From contig NZ_JAURYU010000011.1 of the NCBI RefSeq assembly GCF_030653755.1, positions 62,001 to 126,000 of the forward strand: DNA of 64,000 bases. Direction: 5' to 3'. Source of the stretch: Methylotenera sp. (GTDB taxonomy: Bacteria > Pseudomonadota > Gammaproteobacteria > Burkholderiales > Methylophilaceae). The notes below the pieces were generated by a model. That model was not told the DNA's origin. It worked only from the letters and a program-made list of their open reading frames with translations, and ran no database searches. A program made the translations under genes and the position numbers. Below are positions 10,253 to 17,307 of the stretch, one piece after another (position 1 is the first letter of the stretch; every line of letters begins with the position of its first letter).

Positions 10253-10319
10253 CTGTTTCATCATTTCATTAGCTTGTTGGGTTGAATGTTACTAATTTTA
10301 TGTTCAATTCAACAAACCT

Positions 10320-10345
10320 TCATTTGTTGTTCATCAATTCTTCAT
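10320..10345 (+). promoter_or_regulatory. PhoB-box-like triple direct repeat upstream of PAP2 gene
   Basis: Three TTCAT half-sites have their TCAT at 10320, 10331 and 10342, exactly 11 bp apart, ending 45 nt before the PAP2 start. The established PhoB half-site is TGTCAT-like with an 11-bp period; here G is replaced by T, so this is a degenerate box. I see no convincing -10 at the right distance. Confidence 0.5.
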
Positions 10346-10390
10346 ATTTCAATGACAAGCTAGCTCCAGTTTAACCAACATTGGAGGTGA

Positions 10391-10930
10391 ATGATGACAT
10401 CTAGAATGCGATTATATTTACATCGTATGCACCAGTTAGATAGCAATGTATGTGTGGCGGTTAACCATACAAGCCGATATAAACTAGTGCGAGATAGTTT
10501 TAGAATGGTCAGCCGATTAGGCGATGGTGTGTTCTGGTACGTGCTGATGATGACAATCTTGCTTATTAAGGGTAGTGATGGTTTTGTCCCTGTGTTACAT
10601 ATGGGGTTGGCTGGATTATCTGGTACGTTGTTGTATAAGTGGTTAAAGGGTAAAACCCTACGCCCACGGCCTTATGAAGTTAGGCAGGATATCTGGTTAA
10701 CAGGGGCGCCGCTTGATAAATTTAGTTTTCCATCAGGACATACCTTACATGCTGTTGTGTTTAGTGCGGTGGCTTTAAGTTACTATCCTCAACTGTCATT
10801 TGTATTAGTACCCTTTACGCTAATGGTTGGTTTGTCTCGCGTTGTCTTAGGGTTGCACTATCCTAGTGATGTATTGGCTGGTGCTGTTATTGGCGTAGTG
10901 TTAGCGATGCTGTCTTTTTTAGTGATTTAG
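10391..10930 (+). CDS. PAP2-family membrane lipid phosphatase
   Basis: A 179-aa integral membrane phosphatase with the complete PAP2 signature: K86-x6-R93-P94 (KGKTLRPRP), PSGH at 114-117 and SRVVLGLHYPSD with the catalytic His156 and Asp160. Members act on phosphatidic acid, phosphatidylglycerophosphate, undecaprenyl diphosphate or similar lipids; the substrate cannot be read from sequence. GGAGG lies upstream of the ATG at 10391 (another ATG overlaps at 10394). Its neighbours are a phospholipase-C-like gene and a glycosyltransferase, and Pho-box-like repeats precede it, so release of diacylglycerol or recycling of a lipid phosphate during phosphate limitation is a reasonable inference. Confidence 0.9.
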   Translation: MMTSRMRLYLHRMHQLDSNVCVAVNHTSRYKLVRDSFRMVSRLGDGVFWYVLMMTILLIKGSDGFVPVLHMGLAGLSGTLLYKWLKGKTLRPRPYEVRQDIWLTGAPLDKFSFPSGHTLHAVVFSAVALSYYPQLSFVLVPFTLMVGLSRVVLGLHYPSDVLAGAVIGVVLAMLSFLVI

Positions 10931-10944
10931 CGATAAGCTAAATC
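10924..10944. terminator. Hairpin between convergent PAP2 and phospholipase-like genes
   Basis: GATTTAGC (10924-10931) and GCTAAATC (10937-10944) form a perfect 8-bp stem with a 5-nt loop overlapping the PAP2 stop codon. There is no strong T-run, so its role as a terminator is tentative. Confidence 0.4.
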
Positions 10945-10973
10945 TGCTGTGGTGTGATGTTTTAGTGACCAAC

Positions 10974-11825
10974 TCATGATAAGTGTTTTGGTTTAATGAA
11001 GTATTGCACAGGTTGAGGGTGTGTTTGGCGCAAGTGATCTAAACAAGCTTCACGCCAGAGTTCTAATTGATCTATGCTGATGTTCTTTAGCTCAGCTTCA
11101 TATGCAGGTTGGTTTCCGTTAAGTACTTCACCAATATCGGCCAACGCTATCTGTGTTTTTGCTATGTAGTATACAAAATTCTTGCTAACTTGCTTGTCAG
11201 CTAAGCGTGCAACTTTGTGAATTATCTGTGGCAGCTTAATACTTCTTAATAGCCTATCACCTAATGCTAGACGTTTAATTGCAGTGCGTGTGATATGTGT
11301 ATCGCAATTAAAGTGAACTGAAATAAAGTTCGTCATTACTGCGCTGTGTTTTGTGAGTAAAGCATGTGGTGATGTGTTGATCAGTGGTGCTAAATACGCA
11401 TCCATAGCCCATTCAGAAGTAATATGCGTGAACATGGTGCTTTTAAACCACATGGCCTCATGTGCTGGTACAAAATGATGATGTGCAATCACATCAATAT
11501 ACAAATGACTAGCGTAACCGATTGCAATCGCAGTTTCTTCATCAGATTCCGCAGCGTTAATGAGCTGGTGAGTCTTTTCCCATAAGTGAGTTCTTTTGAA
11601 GTGGTGACTAATAAGTGCCAAGTCAGGAATGCATGCGCCCGCCATCACTAAATCAGGAAATCTTTTAATAGCCCTTTGCAATTTTGGGTCTAATAATGGC
11701 ATTGCCCATAATAATGATTGCGCAAAATAAAGATGGGTAAACAGCCCCCATGCGTTTGCATCCGCTGAGTATGCACAGCATGGTAGCCACCAGTAATATT
11801 TTTTGATGAAGTCTGGTATTTTCAT
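10974..11825 (-). CDS. Zinc-dependent phospholipase C-like protein (PF00882-type)
   Basis: A 283-aa protein with the spaced His/Asp pattern of the Zn_dep_PLPC family: WGLFTH (26-31), GACIPD (Asp68), H74/H75 and KRTH (H80), then GYASHLYIDVIAHHHFVPAH (His107, Asp111, His116-122) and HITSEW (His134, Glu138). In B. cereus phospholipase C such residues and the mature N-terminal Trp bind three zinc ions. ANA before Trp26 resembles a signal-peptidase site, but the preceding stretch is poorly hydrophobic, so export is uncertain. Family members hydrolyse phospholipids to diacylglycerol, but many are uncharacterised. It is convergent with PAP2 and divergent from a lipid-type glycosyltransferase. Confidence 0.7.
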   Translation of the reverse strand: MKIPDFIKKYYWWLPCCAYSADANAWGLFTHLYFAQSLLWAMPLLDPKLQRAIKRFPDLVMAGACIPDLALISHHFKRTHLWEKTHQLINAAESDEETAIAIGYASHLYIDVIAHHHFVPAHEAMWFKSTMFTHITSEWAMDAYLAPLINTSPHALLTKHSAVMTNFISVHFNCDTHITRTAIKRLALGDRLLRSIKLPQIIHKVARLADKQVSKNFVYYIAKTQIALADIGEVLNGNQPAYEAELKNISIDQLELWREACLDHLRQTHPQPVQYFIKPKHLS

Positions 11826-11848
11826 GCCAGCTACTGTGCCAATTGAAT

Positions 11849-11876
11849 GTGATGCTAATATGACATTAGCATGATG
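11849..11876 (-). promoter_or_regulatory. Operator-like dyad / weak Pho-like box upstream of phospholipase gene
   Basis: ATGCTAAT (11852-11859) and ATTAGCAT (11865-11872) form a perfect 8-bp inverted repeat with a 5-nt spacer, 27-47 nt upstream of the start codon. Read on the minus strand the same stretch contains CATCAT and TGTCAT 11 bp apart, so it also fits a weak PhoB half-site pair. Which reading matters is not clear. Confidence 0.4.
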
Positions 11877-11915
11877 TTTTTATGCAGAAAATGATGAGGT
11901 TAGTTATCTTTGATT

Positions 11916-11932
11916 GTTCATGAAACTGTCAT
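11916..11932 (+). promoter_or_regulatory. PhoB box upstream of glycosyltransferase
   Basis: GTTCAT (11916-11921) and TGTCAT (11927-11932) are 11 bp apart. A TATATT -10 candidate begins 10 nt downstream (11943-11948), the geometry of class PhoB promoters, and the start codon follows at 11995. Confidence 0.65.
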
Positions 11933-11994
11933 ATAGCGTGTTTATATTGTTGGTGACGAAATAGAATTTATTAACAAATAGGTGAGCAACGCGT

Positions 11995-13209
11995 ATGAAG
12001 ATACTATTCATTTCTGATGTATATTTTCCACGTATCAATGGCGTATCAACTTCAATTAGAACCTTTGTTGAGCAGATGCAAGGCTTAGGGCATGAAGTAC
12101 ATTTAATCGCGCCAGACTATGGCGTTTACACTCAAGATGAATCGTGGATTAAGCGCATACCAGCACGCAGTATTTATTTTGATCCTGAAGACAAGCTAAT
12201 GAAATATGGGGAGGCAATTCAACGCCTACCTAGGCTACGTCGGGAAAAATATGACATTGTGCATGTGCATACTCCTTTTGTGGCGCATTATCTAGGGCTT
12301 AAGTTAGCGCGTGAGTTAAATGTGCCATGTGTAGAAACTTACCATACTTTTTTTGAAGATTACTTACATCATTACTTGCCTTGGATACCAAAGCCAATGG
12401 CACGTGGCGTGGCCAGAATGATTTCTAAGCGACAATGTAATGCTGTTGATGCGATTGTTGCACCATCGCAGCCTATGCTTGATGTGTTGCGCGGCTACGG
12501 TGTGTCTGTGAACGCTGAGGTAGTGCCTACAGGCTTGCAAATGCAGAGCTTTAAGGATGCTGATGGTCAGGCCTTTAGGCAAAAGTACGAGATTCCTTTA
12601 GAGCGGCCAATGCTCTTATATGTAGGTCGTGTAGCATTTGAAAAGAATATTTCATTTTTGCTTGAAATGGCCAGTGTGCTAGTTAAAGAAGTACCTGATG
12701 TATTGCTGGTGATCACGGGTGAGGGGCCAGCTGAAGCAAGCCTGCATCAACTGACACAGCAACTTTGCATATCGAATAACGTTAAATTTATTGGATACTT
12801 AGATCGCGAGCGCGAACTTAATGCTTGTTATCAGGCCGCAGATATATTTGTGTTTGCTTCAAAAAGTGAAACACAAGGCCTTGTGCTACTAGAGGCTATG
12901 GCGCAAGGTACACCAGTTGTAGCGATTGCAGAGCTTGGTACAGCATCAATATTGGTGAATGGTGAGGGAGCGCTGATCGCACCTGATCATGTTATCGGTT
13001 TTGCAGATAAGGTGAAGCATTTATTGATTTACCCTGAGGAGCGATTTGAGCTTGGTGTGCGTGCCAGATCTTATGTGCTTGCAAATTGGACTGCGTCAAT
13101 ACAGGCAGAGCGTATGGTGCAGTTTTATGCCACAATTATGCATGCTAACGTATCTGCTGATAAGAATAGCCAGCTAAGCATTACGCAGAAACATGTTGTG
13201 ATTGATTAA
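11995..13209 (+). CDS. GT4-family glycosyltransferase (probable diacylglycerol/lipid glycosyltransferase)
   Basis: A 404-aa GT-B fold enzyme. The N-terminal half begins KILFISDVYFPRINGVSTSI, typical of GT4 enzymes acting on lipids (diacylglycerol glucosyl-, mannosyl- or sulfoquinovosyl-transferases). The C-terminal half has YVGRVAFEKNI and the EX7E motif in SKSETQGLVLLEAMAQG; SETQGL is common in diacylglycerol glycosyltransferases. There is no signal peptide. Donor and acceptor are not determinable by eye; a mannosyltransferase acting on another lipid is an alternative. A Pho box and a divergent phospholipase-C-like gene suggest glycolipid synthesis when phosphate is scarce. A GGTGAG Shine-Dalgarno lies upstream and a strong terminator follows. 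Confidence 0.82.
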   Translation: MKILFISDVYFPRINGVSTSIRTFVEQMQGLGHEVHLIAPDYGVYTQDESWIKRIPARSIYFDPEDKLMKYGEAIQRLPRLRREKYDIVHVHTPFVAHYLGLKLARELNVPCVETYHTFFEDYLHHYLPWIPKPMARGVARMISKRQCNAVDAIVAPSQPMLDVLRGYGVSVNAEVVPTGLQMQSFKDADGQAFRQKYEIPLERPMLLYVGRVAFEKNISFLLEMASVLVKEVPDVLLVITGEGPAEASLHQLTQQLCISNNVKFIGYLDRERELNACYQAADIFVFASKSETQGLVLLEAMAQGTPVVAIAELGTASILVNGEGALIAPDHVIGFADKVKHLLIYPEERFELGVRARSYVLANWTASIQAERMVQFYATIMHANVSADKNSQLSITQKHVVID

Positions 13210-13302: not shown

Positions 13303-13404
13303 GCTTTTACTAACTAACCAGATTTATAAAGTTATTTAGTAAAAGCACCCAGCTAGTTAAAGTTAGTTAGCTAGTAAAATCATCTAGCTTATAAAGTTAG
13401 TTAG
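13303..13404. repeat. Degenerate repeats between glycosyltransferase and pstB
   Basis: GCTTTTACTAA (13303-13313) is an inverted repeat of TTAGTAAAAGC (13336-13346). A TATAAAGTTA(T/G)TTAG unit occurs near 13324 and again near 13390, and AGTTAGTTAG / TAGCTAG variants fill the space between. This is a low-complexity, slippage-prone spacer ending in the pstB stop region. Confidence 0.5.
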
Positions 13405-14180
13405 CCGAATTTACCAGTAATGTAATCTTCAGTTTCTTTACGGGTAGGGCGTGTGAAGATGCGGTCAGTTTCACCATGTTCAATCAGTTCGCCTAAATAC
13501 ATATAGGCTGTGTAATCAGAAACACGTGCGGCCTGTTGCATGTTGTGGGTCACGACAAGAATCGTTAGCTTGTTACGTAACTCACTCATTAACTCTTCAA
13601 TATTTGCGGTTGCGATTGGATCTAATGCTGAAGTCGGTTCATCAAACAGCATAATCTCAGGGTCGGTTGCCAGTGCGCGTGCAATACATAAACGTTGCTG
13701 CTGACCGCCTGATAAATTGAAGGCTAGGTCTTGCAATCTGTCTTTTACCTCATTCCAAAGTGCAGCGCCCTTTAAAGCCTCTTCTACTTTATCATCAACA
13801 ATGCGTCTATTTTTTTCGCCACGTACACGTAAACCATACGCCACGTTTTCATAAATAGATTTTGGAAATGGATTAGGTTTTTGAAACACCATGCTAATAC
13901 GCATGCGTACTTCAATCGGGTCTACATTTTTCTCTAGGATATTGGTGTTATCTGGATGCATGATAATTTGACCCTCATACTTGTTGCCAGGGTATAAGTC
14001 ATGCATACGGTTAAAGCAGCGTAAAAATGTAGATTTACCGCAACCAGACGGTCCAATCAGTGCAGTAATTTTATTTTCATACAAAGGCATAGAAACGTTT
14101 TTTACTGCATTATTGCCACCGTTATAAAAAAAACTGAGGTTACGTGCTTCAGCTTTTACTGGTGTAGTTGATGTCATCAT
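13401..14180 (-). CDS. pstB: Phosphate ABC transporter ATP-binding protein PstB
   Basis: ATPase subunit of the high-affinity phosphate importer PstSCAB. The 259 residues contain Walker [10 protein letters not shown], the Q-loop region [17 protein letters not shown] (family-specific), the signature [14 protein letters not shown], Walker [14 protein letters not shown] and the switch His in VTHNMQQA. Last gene of the pstSCAB run; it lies 44 nt after pstA. No phoU follows: the next gene is the convergent glycosyltransferase. Confidence 0.97.
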
Positions 14181-14224
14181 GAGAATTTAGATTCCTGTTG
14201 ATAAATATAGAGATAAGTCGTGCA

Positions 14225-15163
14225 TTACCATTTAATGTTTTTACGCATTTTGTAACGCATTCTGATGGCAAAGCCGTTCATAATTAGTGTCACTAAAATG
14301 ATAATCACCCCAGCGGCTGCGGCGTTAACATGGAATGCTTCACTTGGACGTGATAACCAACTAAACATCTGAATCGGTAAAACTGTGAAGCCTGATGATA
14401 GCCATTCAAAGTTAAGAAATGGCGCAGTTGTTGTCACAGGAGATGGTGGTAAAAATGCAATGAATGTCAGTGCGCCAATGGTAATAATCGGTGCAGTTTC
14501 CCCAATTGCGCGCGCCATGCCGATAATGACACCAGTTAAAATACCGCCAAAAGAATACTTAATGACGTGGTCATATACCACTTGCCATTTGGTTGCCCCT
14601 ACAGCGTAGGCCGCCTCACGAATCGCAATAGGGATGCTACGTATTGACTCACGGGTTGCGACAATCACGACAGGTAAAATTAATAAACCTAAAGTAAGGC
14701 CTGCTGTGACGATACTTTGGCCTAGGTCTAAAATGTAAACAAATAAGCCAAGTGCTAATAAGCCGTAAATAATTGAAGGCACAGCCGCTAAGTTTGAAAC
14801 GTTGATTTCAATCAGGTCCGAAAACCAGTTTTTTGGTGCGTATTCTTCAAGATAAATAGCCGCCATGACGCCCATCGGGACTGCTGACAAAAAGGTTACC
14901 AGCATCACTAATGATGAACCAACTAATGCGGATAATAATCCAGCACTAGACGCACGACGTGATGGGAAGTCTGTATAGAAACTTAAAGATAATAGTTTAG
15001 GGTAACCTTGGAGGACTAAATCAATAAACAGCGTTAATAGCGTAATAAGGCCAACCATTAAGCACAGTAAACCGATGATAGAGAAAATATAATCATTGAG
15101 TTTATGCCGTTGAATCATGGCACGTACTTCATTCAGGTTTTTAGTTTGTTGCTTGTTCATCAT
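14225..15163 (-). CDS. pstA: Phosphate ABC transporter permease PstA
   Basis: Inner-membrane permease subunit (312 aa) with about six transmembrane segments and the binding-protein-dependent transport motif region REAAYAVGATKWQ, which contacts PstB, followed by IIGMARAIGETAPIITIGA. Its start codon overlaps the pstC stop by one base (TAATG), indicating translational coupling. Confidence 0.96.
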   Translation of the reverse strand: MMNKQQTKNLNEVRAMIQRHKLNDYIFSIIGLLCLMVGLITLLTLFIDLVLQGYPKLLSLSFYTDFPSRRASSAGLLSALVGSSLVMLVTFLSAVPMGVMAAIYLEEYAPKNWFSDLIEINVSNLAAVPSIIYGLLALGLFVYILDLGQSIVTAGLTLGLLILPVVIVATRESIRSIPIAIREAAYAVGATKWQVVYDHVIKYSFGGILTGVIIGMARAIGETAPIITIGALTFIAFLPPSPVTTTAPFLNFEWLSSGFTVLPIQMFSWLSRPSEAFHVNAAAAGVIIILVTLIMNGFAIRMRYKMRKNIKW

Positions 15164-16110
15164 TAGTACCTCTCGCTATATTTCTTGCGGGTAATGTGGC
15201 CGATAATATTGAGCGTCAATGTCATTAGCATCAAGACTAAGCCTGCTGCAAAAATACTTTGATAGCCAATACTGCCATGCGGTAAGTCACCCATGGCAAC
15301 TTGCACGATATAAGCAGTAATGGTGGCAGCGGCATCCATCGGGTTAAACGTTAAGTTTGGTTGTTGGCCAGCCGCGATTGCAACTACCATGGTCTCCCCA
15401 ATCGCACGTGAGATACCTAAAATATAAGCAGCAACAATCCCTGAAACTGCGGCAGGGGTGACCACCCTAATGGCTGTTTGAAAACGCGTTGCACCCATCG
15501 CATAAGAGCCTTCGCGCATGCTCATTGGCACAGCACGCATGGCATCTTCTGATAGCGAGGCAATGTATGGGATAATCATAATGCCAATCACGATGCCAGA
15601 GCTCAACATATTAAATGTTGGCAAGCCCGGTATTATTTTTTGTAAAAGTGGCGTGATAAATAGTAGCGCAAAGAAACCGAACTCAATGCTTGGTACGCCT
15701 GCTAACAACTCTAAGATTGGTTTCACTGTTTCACGCACACGGTGTGACGCAAACTCTGAAAGATAGATAGCACTGATGGTACCAATAGGTACAGCAATTA
15801 ATAGTGCAACGCCAGTGACAGTAAGCGTACCAGAAACTAAAGGCAATATACCGTAGCGTGGGTTTTCAAATAACGGTGTCCATACAGTATCTGTCAGAAA
15901 GTCTGATATAGAGACATGTTCAAAGAAACCATAAGATTCGTATAATAGAATGCCCATAATCGCAGCAGTCGTTAATACTGCAGAGAATGCAGCTAGCATT
16001 AAAATGAATTCAATCACTCGCTCTTTTAAGTGGCGATTGAAGTTCTTAGATAAGCGATCACTAATTTGAGGCGTTAATGAGTTATTTAGCACTTGGGTTA
16101 CCGTATTCAC
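15163..16110 (-). CDS. pstC: Phosphate ABC transporter permease PstC
   Basis: Second permease subunit (315 aa) forming the phosphate channel with PstA. It has about six transmembrane helices and the coupling loop REGSYAMGATRFQ, then ILGISRAIGETMVVAIAAG. It follows pstS after 93 nt containing a large hairpin, and overlaps pstA by one base. Confidence 0.96.
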   Translation of the reverse strand: MNTVTQVLNNSLTPQISDRLSKNFNRHLKERVIEFILMLAAFSAVLTTAAIMGILLYESYGFFEHVSISDFLTDTVWTPLFENPRYGILPLVSGTLTVTGVALLIAVPIGTISAIYLSEFASHRVRETVKPILELLAGVPSIEFGFFALLFITPLLQKIIPGLPTFNMLSSGIVIGIMIIPYIASLSEDAMRAVPMSMREGSYAMGATRFQTAIRVVTPAAVSGIVAAYILGISRAIGETMVVAIAAGQQPNLTFNPMDAAATITAYIVQVAMGDLPHGSIGYQSIFAAGLVLMLMTLTLNIIGHITRKKYSERY

Positions 16111-16147
16111 GTGATATGTACCAGCTAGTTTATATTATTTGTAAAGC

Positions 16148-16192
16148 GGCGCTTGTCTGAAACATAAAAAATATGTATTTCAAACAAGCGTC
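16148..16192 (-). other. Intra-operon hairpin between pstS and pstC
   Basis: GCGCTTGTCTGAAACAT (16149-16165) pairs with ATGTATTTCAAACAAGCGTC (16173-16192) with few mismatches around an A-rich loop. On the transcribed strand there is no T-run directly after the stem. Such stem-loops after a binding-protein gene commonly stabilise that part of the message or cause partial termination, giving more PstS than permease; that is inference here. Confidence 0.6.
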
Positions 16193-16203
16193 AGTTAAGC
16201 ATG

Positions 16204-17205
16204 CTATTTAATACGTGCTAGCAACTCTTCAATTTTTACACCAACTTCAGATTTTCCACCAAAGCCAGAACCTGGTTTAAGTGCTTTCCAGTGAGTAATC
16301 ACGGCTTTTTGTTCTTTAGCTGGTAAAGCTACATATTTTACTTCCTCGATCAAAGGTTTGCTGTTTTCTAAATAATAGTTAACAAATGCTTTCACTTCTG
16401 GTTTGAAAGCAGCAGCCGTTGCATTCACATAAATAAAGATAGGACGAGCTAGTGGCTGATAAGTGCCATCTTCAATTGATGCTTTTGATGGTAATACAGC
16501 TGGTTTTCCAGCTTTTTCGATAATAGCCACTGCAGTTAATTTGTCTTGGTTTTCTTCATAGTAAGCATAACCAAAGTAACCAAGTGCACCTTTATCACCT
16601 ACCACACCTTTAACCAAGACATTGTCATCTTCAGATGCGGTGAAATCACCACGGCTAGATTTAGCTTTGCCAACAATCGCTTCCGTAAAGTAATCAAACG
16701 TACCTGAGTCAGCACCTGGGCCATATAGCTTAACTGGTGTATTTGGCCATGCAGGGTTTACTTGATTCCAAGTTTTTACTTTACCTTGAGCCGCTGGTTC
16801 CCATAATTTCTTAAGTTCTGCCGCTGTCATTTTCTTAGCGAAGTCATTTTGAGGGTTGATGACAACAGTTAATGCGTCATAGGCTACTGGTAATTCAATA
16901 AACTGTACGCCAGCCTCTTTACATGCATCAATTTCTTTTTGCAGAATAGGGCGTGATGCATTTTGTACATCAGTTTCACCACGGCAGAATTTTTTGAAGC
17001 CGCCGCCAGTGCCTGAAACACCTACGGTTACCTTGGTTTTTGTTGCTTTTTGAAACTCTTCTGCAACCGCCTCAGTAATTGGGTAAACAGTGCTGGAGCC
17101 GTCAATTTTAACAATTTTTTCAGCTGCAACAGCCATGGTTGGTAGTGCAAATAATGATGCAACTAAACCGGCTATTGATGAGTATTTAGTAAACTGGTAA
17201 TTCAT
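16204..17205 (-). CDS. pstS: Phosphate-binding periplasmic protein PstS
   Basis: Periplasmic receptor delivering phosphate to PstCA. The 333 residues start with a signal peptide (cleavage near AVA-AEK, about residue 28) followed by [19 protein letters not shown], then [19 protein letters not shown], and [15 protein letters not shown] in the second lobe, matching the phosphate-contacting Ser/Thr/Arg/Asp regions of the family. Preceded by a very good Pho box with a fitting -10, it heads the pstSCAB operon. Confidence 0.97.
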
Positions 17206-17252: not shown

Positions 17253-17280
17253 ATGAAGCTATTGTGACAATATAATGACA
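17253..17280 (-). promoter_or_regulatory. PhoB box of pstS promoter
   Basis: On the minus strand TGTCAT, TGTCAC and CTTCAT occur exactly 11 bp apart (plus-strand positions 17275-17280, 17264-17269, 17253-17258). A TATGAT -10 lies 10 nt beyond the second half-site. The box ends 48 nt before the pstS start codon. This is the clearest PhoB operator in the window and calibrates the others. Confidence 0.88.
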
Positions 17281-17307
17281 AAAAATAAATTAGTAAAATG
17301 AACAAAT

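Follow-up and report, generated by a model that had tools for sequence, protein, structure and literature searches.

A putative phosphate-starvation lipid-remodelling cassette of Methylotenera in which an exported zinc phospholipase C-like protein most likely stands in for PlcP

We analyzed a stretch of 64,000 nucleotides from Methylotenera sp. (contig NZ_JAURYU010000011.1, positions 62,001 to 126,000), called the window below, and in particular three of its genes that may remodel membrane lipids during phosphate starvation. The genes encode a PAP2-family phosphatase, a zinc phospholipase C-like protein of the PF00882 family, for which we use the label ZPLC, and a GT4 glycosyltransferase. We asked whether ZPLC takes the place of PlcP, the metallophosphoesterase of the known PlcP-Agt pathway, as the source of diacylglycerol (DAG). 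A preliminary description of the window had reported three adjacent genes, and this was confirmed: the open reading frames contain no internal stops, and all three products scored above the Pfam cut-offs. The gene order is yhbY (-), rlmE (+), ftsH (+), folP (+), glmM (+), PAP2 (+), ZPLC (-), GT4 (+), pstB-A-C-S (-), pitA (-), a phoU-like gene (-), prfB (+) and lysS (+), in which the housekeeping genes were named by reading their translations. That is, the trio is placed between glmM and the phosphate uptake operon pstB, pstA, pstC, pstS (13401..17205, minus strand; named by reading and position). This operon, which had been correctly described as next door, marks the locus and adjoins the cassette in many relatives. 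The window genome (G000) has a size of 2.49 Mb in 58 contigs and is 99.7% complete.

ZPLC (10974..11825, minus strand) is a protein of 283 residues that is predicted to be exported, and its assignment is based on Pfam and comparative genomics. Its score against Zn_dep_PLPC (PF00882) was 80 bits, above the curated cut-off of 26.8. The predicted signal peptide consists of residues 1-25 (11751..11825, minus strand) and ends in A-N-A before Trp26; it was recognized from conservation and from the start of the phospholipase C alignment. That is, A23, A25 and W26, which form an AxA motif directly before Trp, did not vary in any of the 32 aligned orthologues, and the fold alignment with phospholipase C chains, at their residue 1, starts at W26. 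The His/Asp pattern noted earlier was also borne out, because the ligand-type residues H31, D68, H80, H107, D111, H134 and E138 were invariant in all 32 sequences and H117 in 31. We presume that these residues correspond to the ligand numbers of the Bacillus cereus enzyme. The alignment (A2) excludes one region (L284) whose reading had a stop. The predicted fold was closest to the phospholipase C of B. cereus and Listeria, with an identity of 13-16% in the fold alignment, and P1-type nucleases ranked only slightly lower. A sequence search of the PDB gave no match up to E 10, Foldseek gave nothing at E <= 0.001, and a plasmid search for ZPLC gave no match. A scan of the class for PF00882 gave matches in 10 of 274 genomes, 7 of them above the cut-off, and was not used in our conclusions.

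The PAP2-family phosphatase (10391..10930, plus strand; 179 residues) scored 79 bits against a Pfam cut-off of 27.2. The motifs of this superfamily are KxxxxxxRP, PSGH and SRxxxxxHxxxD, and the window protein possesses KGKTLRPRP, PSGH and SRVVLGLHYPSD, so that the set is complete as first described. Five equivalog models matched it, including PgpB, LpxE and undecaprenyl phosphatases, every one below its cut-off. Judging from Pfam, the motifs and the neighbourhood, we predict that it offers a second route to DAG, from phosphatidate.

The GT4 glycosyltransferase (11995..13209, plus strand; 404 residues) is a predicted diacylglycerol glycosyltransferase, on the basis of Pfam, NCBIfam and motifs. 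It matched Glycos_transf_1 with 132 bits and Glyco_transf_4 with 115 bits. Its top NCBIfam match was alpha-monoglucosyldiacylglycerol synthase (NF049988) and the second was another lipid glycosyltransferase. It lies below the cut-off of all 25 NCBIfam families listed; since the top score was 145.6 bits against a cut-off of 400, we did not assign it to that equivalog. The SETQGL motif of the preliminary description is present, but it differs from the TDTFG of the Agt clade: the window protein has GRVAFEKN and FASKSETQG and does not have the FPSxTDTFG of that clade. Glycosyltransferases possessing GRVAVEKN and FPS.TDTFG of the Agt clade were found adjacent to PlcP in 6 of 20 PlcP regions (L305, L306, L307, L312, L313, L315), and by these motifs the six pairs are canonical plcP-agt pairs within the order.

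Pho-box-like sites were scored as matches out of 14 for two units, with p values from 1000 dinucleotide shuffles; a three-unit measure is stricter. Within the window by itself, the GT4 site was the one significant site of the trio (TGTTCATGAAACTGTCAT, 11915..11932, plus strand; 11/14 matches, p = 0.008), and the site before pstS, used as a positive control, gave p = 0.017 (17264..17281, minus strand). Three 11-bp-spaced units precede PAP2 (10317..10345, plus strand), with p = 0.58 for two units and 0.16 for three. A site before ZPLC (11860..11877, minus strand), absent from the preliminary description, gave p = 0.13 by both measures. As a window control, glmM gave p = 0.04 for two units and 0.23 for three. 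The boxes proposed before PAP2 and GT4 therefore held up in the window for GT4, but for PAP2 they became convincing only across orthologues. When upstream regions of orthologues were counted (window left out; positive at a score of >=10/14), boxes were found for PAP2 in 42/62 (68%), for ZPLC in 43/52 (83%) and for GT4 in 61/76 (80%), against 8-9% in shuffles, and for pstS in 22/27 (81%). The values for pstB, pstC, pitA, glmM, folP, ftsH, rlmE and prfB were near background, 2-14% with 3-10% in shuffles, and the highest of these eight were pstC (4/29) and rlmE (5/39); by the three-unit measure pstC reached 3/29 versus 2% shuffled. From these boxes, we predict that the trio is under Pho control and would be induced by PhoB at low phosphate.

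We then compared relatives in samples of the genus (37 genomes, the window genome among them), the family Methylophilaceae (120 genomes) and the order (399 genomes). The cut-offs were 1e-10 for ZPLC, 1e-40 for PlcP (1e-30 in the family) and 1e-95 for GT4, and they were chosen after relatives had been seen; the weakest positives order-wide were 4e-73 for a ZPLC genome and 1.6e-49 for a PlcP genome. In the order searches, up to 6 first-look candidates per genome were scored for ZPLC and PlcP and up to 4 for GT4, so that a few genes could be missed. In the genus sample, ZPLC occurred in 31, GT4 in 32 and PAP2 in 34 of the 37 genomes, and the trio was adjacent in most of the fetched loci of the genus. 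Since most genomes of the genus sample keep this arrangement and it recurs in other families, we rejected a chance neighbourhood.

Genes of lipid metabolism surround ZPLC. Among named ZPLC loci, which are the best 80 of 306 relatives and many of which are truncated by contig ends, GT4 was found within 2 kb of ZPLC in 74, PAP2 in 68 and DAG kinase in 26; the nearest is that of a Methylotenera sp. metagenome-assembled genome, with 97% protein identity in ZPLC and the same gene order. We also hand-picked for spread 20 ZPLC and 20 PlcP regions, taken from the 57 ZPLC and 196 PlcP genomes of the order, except for one PlcP region (from G027). Of the 20 ZPLC regions, that of G618 belongs to the window's family and the remaining 19 represent other families. 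Within 3 kb of ZPLC in these 20, a second GT4 type, designated GT4b, was found in 14, PAP2 in 13, DAG kinase in 8, and the ornithine-lipid genes OlsB in 7 and OlsA in 5. DAG kinase uses DAG directly, and thus its position between ZPLC and GT4 is what would be predicted if ZPLC produces DAG.

In the window genome itself, a PfkB-type kinase gene, a glycine-zipper protein gene and OlsB-like and OlsA-like genes are consecutive on another contig (C45, L119:9378-12811), and the latter two lie about 10 kb from phoB-phoR-like genes. The Pho box before OlsB gave p = 0.010 for two units and 0.001 for three. The OlsB-like and OlsA-like proteins scored under the curated cut-offs (183.9 vs 320 and 134.7 vs 300, respectively). 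In other families, this same four-gene block adjoins ZPLC-PAP2-GT4b-DgkA (L292, L294).

In the order, 57 genomes were positive for ZPLC, 196 for PlcP and 107 for the window GT4, and none of the 399 possessed ZPLC and PlcP together, where 28 would be expected (Fisher 2e-19, a p value that ignores descent). The 107 GT4 genomes comprised 47 with ZPLC, 55 with PlcP, 5 with neither and none with both. The co-occurrence of GT4 and ZPLC was far above the expected number (47 vs 15). The link of GT4 to PlcP was not above chance over all 196 PlcP genomes (55 vs 52.6) and was strong for the 51 closest PlcPs (39 vs 13.7 expected); in some of the remaining PlcP genomes, PlcP is beside a different glycosyltransferase. 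As the available correction for descent, we counted the groups in which both kinds are present: 8 families and 6 genera in the order sample, and genus g384 in the family sample. Of the 120 family genomes, 78 were positive for ZPLC and 22 for PlcP; G027 alone had both, and 21 had neither. In the genus sample PlcP was found in 1/37 at E <= 1e-30.

PlcP was not found in the window genome: two PF00149 matches were read as ApaH and LpxH, and the PlcP query gave only a weak match (E = 4e-6) at the LpxH-like gene (L120). We therefore rejected a hidden PlcP. The co-occurrence and the absence of plcP that the preliminary description had proposed to check were thus found, with G027 as the genome that has both.

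In two relatives at the order level (G050, G056), the orthologous GT4, 48-55% identical, adjoins a PlcP-type metallophosphoesterase instead of ZPLC. The PlcP query (L082) shared 47% identity over 263 positions with a Sinorhizobium meliloti protein whose gene is annotated next to acyl-homoserine-lactone synthase and LuxR genes. We take this protein to be SMc00171, which lies beside sinR/sinI and is the PlcP of Zavaleta-Pastor 2010. We rejected the possibility that the PlcP candidates are LpxH, because they were 47-53% identical to the S. meliloti protein versus 25% for the LpxH-like protein of the window genome, and because two candidates fell far under the LpxH equivalog cut-offs. A Methylomagnum ishizawai protein was 74% identical to the query, and plcP is described as apparently ubiquitous in proteobacterial methanotrophs in a passage of PMC9239053. 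Two side observations concern PlcP-type genes. In G050, a second PlcP-like copy with internal stops (L081:5936-6718) lies beside an open GT4 frame, and on a plasmid of Mitsuaria sp. 7 (L318) a PlcP-type gene is directly before the polyphosphate kinase gene ppk1, near a Ppx/GppA phosphatase gene.

The exchange was seen within one cassette in genus g384 of the window's family. One genome (G711) has glmM, GT4b, PAP2, ZPLC, DgkA, GT4, an EAL/GGDEF gene and pst, and two others (G725, G733) have GT4b, PAP2, PlcP, DgkA, GT4, the EAL/GGDEF gene and pst. Comparison of G711 with G725 and G733 gave 62-84% identity for the shared genes. ZPLC runs against the direction of its neighbours and PlcP runs with them; beyond GT4b come glmM (G711), a contig end (G725) and other genes (G733). 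The G711 ZPLC was 49% identical to that of the window, and the G725 PlcP was 53% identical to the S. meliloti protein over 240 residues. In G352, PlcP and GT4 lie between glmM and the pst operon, like the window trio, with the pst operon reversed. PAP2 and GT4 also lie close to PlcP and OlsA-/OlsB-like genes in G559 and G462, two members of the family with genomes of 1.3 Mb.

The protein between GT4 and pst in g384 has EAL, CBS and GGDEF domains (L345:12114-13916 and L340:4119-5987, both minus strand; Pfam run on the L345 copy), and an EAL-like reading frame was noted by eye near the ZPLC cluster in L087. It is possible that cyclic di-GMP is linked to the phosphate response through this protein.

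Taken together, the lack of co-occurrence with PlcP in the order sample, the exchange in one cassette slot, the AxA-Trp motif, the predicted fold (nearest to phospholipase C, though P1-type nucleases follow closely) and the Pho boxes point to ZPLC as the most likely replacement of PlcP as the DAG source. The proposal of the preliminary description that a PF00882 phospholipase supplies DAG instead of PlcP is supported in this way, on a comparative basis. We consider it rather probable that the cluster remodels lipids during phosphate starvation and that ZPLC, with its likely signal peptide, performs in it the phospholipase C step for which some relatives use PlcP, probably from the periplasmic side. 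With less confidence, we also lean towards a wider view, namely that bacteria may possess a second, non-homologous lipid-remodelling engine, a Pho-controlled exported zinc phospholipase C making DAG at the periplasmic face, which has been swapped with cytosolic PlcP in at least 7 genera of one order, in one case inside a PAP2/DAG kinase/GT4 cassette that is otherwise unaltered.

The presence, conservation and neighbourhood of these genes, the exclusion between ZPLC and PlcP and their exchange in a single cassette are direct observations. A mechanism can be considered from them as follows. PhoB, acting at the Pho boxes, would induce all three genes. ZPLC would be exported and, as the invariant AxA-W suggests, matured with Trp26 as its first residue; it would then bind zinc and cleave phospholipid head groups on the periplasmic side to give DAG, and the head-group phosphate might be recovered by phosphatases and Pst. 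PAP2 could provide further DAG from phosphatidate. DAG would cross to the cytoplasmic face, where GT4 may glycosylate it, most likely with glucose as judged from its family. The DAG kinase, where it is in the cassette, would turn surplus DAG back to phosphatidate.

Several findings weigh against this proposal. G027, of the window's own genus, carries both ZPLC and PlcP; its PlcP gene (L314, G027:C13:660532-661263) is 43-44% identical to the query, and no GT4 was found nearby in the fetched stretch. Five of the 107 GT4 genomes of the order have neither phospholipase (G385, G427, G586, G623, G644), 10 of the 57 ZPLC genomes are without the window-type GT4, G029 of the genus sample carries GT4 and PAP2 but neither phospholipase, and 5 of the 20 hand-picked ZPLC regions (L278, L279, L282, L290, L293) are without either GT4 type or PAP2. 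Furthermore, Methylotenera plcP transcripts from lake sediment are reported in a passage of PMC9239053. Such transcripts fit a minority of the genus, yet they show that the exclusion of ZPLC and PlcP is no law.

Among other explanations, the one that survives best is that ZPLC, once exported, serves as a phosphodiesterase or nuclease for scavenging outside phosphate and is merely co-regulated with the lipid genes by PhoB. In the fold comparison, P1-type nucleases came close behind phospholipase C. The last ligand position, however, is Glu in phospholipase C and Asp in P1 nuclease, and in ZPLC it was Glu in 32/32. Such scavenging would also leave unexplained why no GT4 genome (0/107) has both phospholipases and why the two are exchanged in one slot. 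We thus think this explanation unlikely.

We give still less credit to the idea that the product of GT4 is a cell-surface polysaccharide or some other compound not based on DAG, the cluster being a surface-remodelling set. GT4 is a broad family, and the score of the window protein, far below the cut-off for the DAG glucosyltransferase and those of all the listed NCBIfam models, would agree with this idea. Against it, the two best matches were lipid glycosyltransferases, exactly one of ZPLC and PlcP was present in 102/107 GT4 genomes, and DAG kinase and ornithine-lipid genes neighbour ZPLC in part of the loci. That DAG comes mainly from PAP2, with ZPLC in a minor or unrelated role, seems very improbable: in G011, G012 and G018 the PAP2-GT4 pair is retained with ZPLC located elsewhere, and G029 has GT4 and PAP2 with neither phospholipase, but PAP2 is common to ZPLC and PlcP cassettes and hence cannot account for their exclusion.

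If ZPLC does the work of PlcP, as we propose, bacteria without plcP would be wrongly scored as unable to remodel. PlcP is called central to bacterial lipid remodelling in a passage of PMC4796936, and passages of PMC9457565 and PMC9239053 propose plcP abundance or transcription as a marker of phosphorus stress. Surveys based on plcP would miss the ZPLC variant, and the scale of the miss can be seen in the family as sampled (ZPLC 78/120 vs PlcP 22/120). The cut would also be made on the periplasmic instead of the cytoplasmic side of the inner membrane, giving a different site of phosphate recovery and a testable question, namely how DAG reaches a cytoplasmic glycosyltransferase. Among openly licensed PMC papers, no title or abstract on this arrangement was found, whether among those on PlcP, on lipid remodelling by zinc phospholipase C, PF00882 or PAP2 proteins, or on lipids, phosphate or phospholipase C in Methylophilaceae or Methylotenera, and looking up terms in PMC6794327 and PMC3728764 brought up no passage.

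Finally, the cluster can be compared with known systems. It is most likely a new variant of the PlcP pathway. Like PlcP-Agt of Sinorhizobium, Phaeobacter, Pelagibacter, Pseudomonas and Methylosinus, it combines a predicted Pho-controlled phospholipase C with a DAG glycosyltransferase, and the orthologous GT4 stands beside PlcP in a number of relatives. In contrast to PlcP, a metallophosphoesterase described as intracellular in a passage of PMC3972451, the window phospholipase is of PF00882 and predicted to be exported; the window GT4 has SETQG in place of the Agt-clade TDTFG (motif from a passage of PMC8231724), and the window-type cassette includes PAP2 and at some loci also DgkA. ZPLC shares with the zinc phospholipase C of B. 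cereus and Listeria the PF00882 family, a Trp after the likely signal-peptidase site and ligand-type residues in matching order, and its predicted fold is nearest to theirs, closely followed by P1-type nucleases. It differs in its low identity to these enzymes, in the lack of a PDB sequence match up to E 10, in its place in a Pho cassette and in its predicted action on the cell's own membrane. The alpha-monoglucosyldiacylglycerol synthase Mgs, also of GT4, is the best curated model for the window glycosyltransferase. OlsBA ornithine-lipid synthesis is likewise a phosphorus-free lipid pathway with OlsB-/OlsA-like genes near ZPLC in some other families, but in the window genome these genes form a separate locus and neither protein reaches its curated cut-off.

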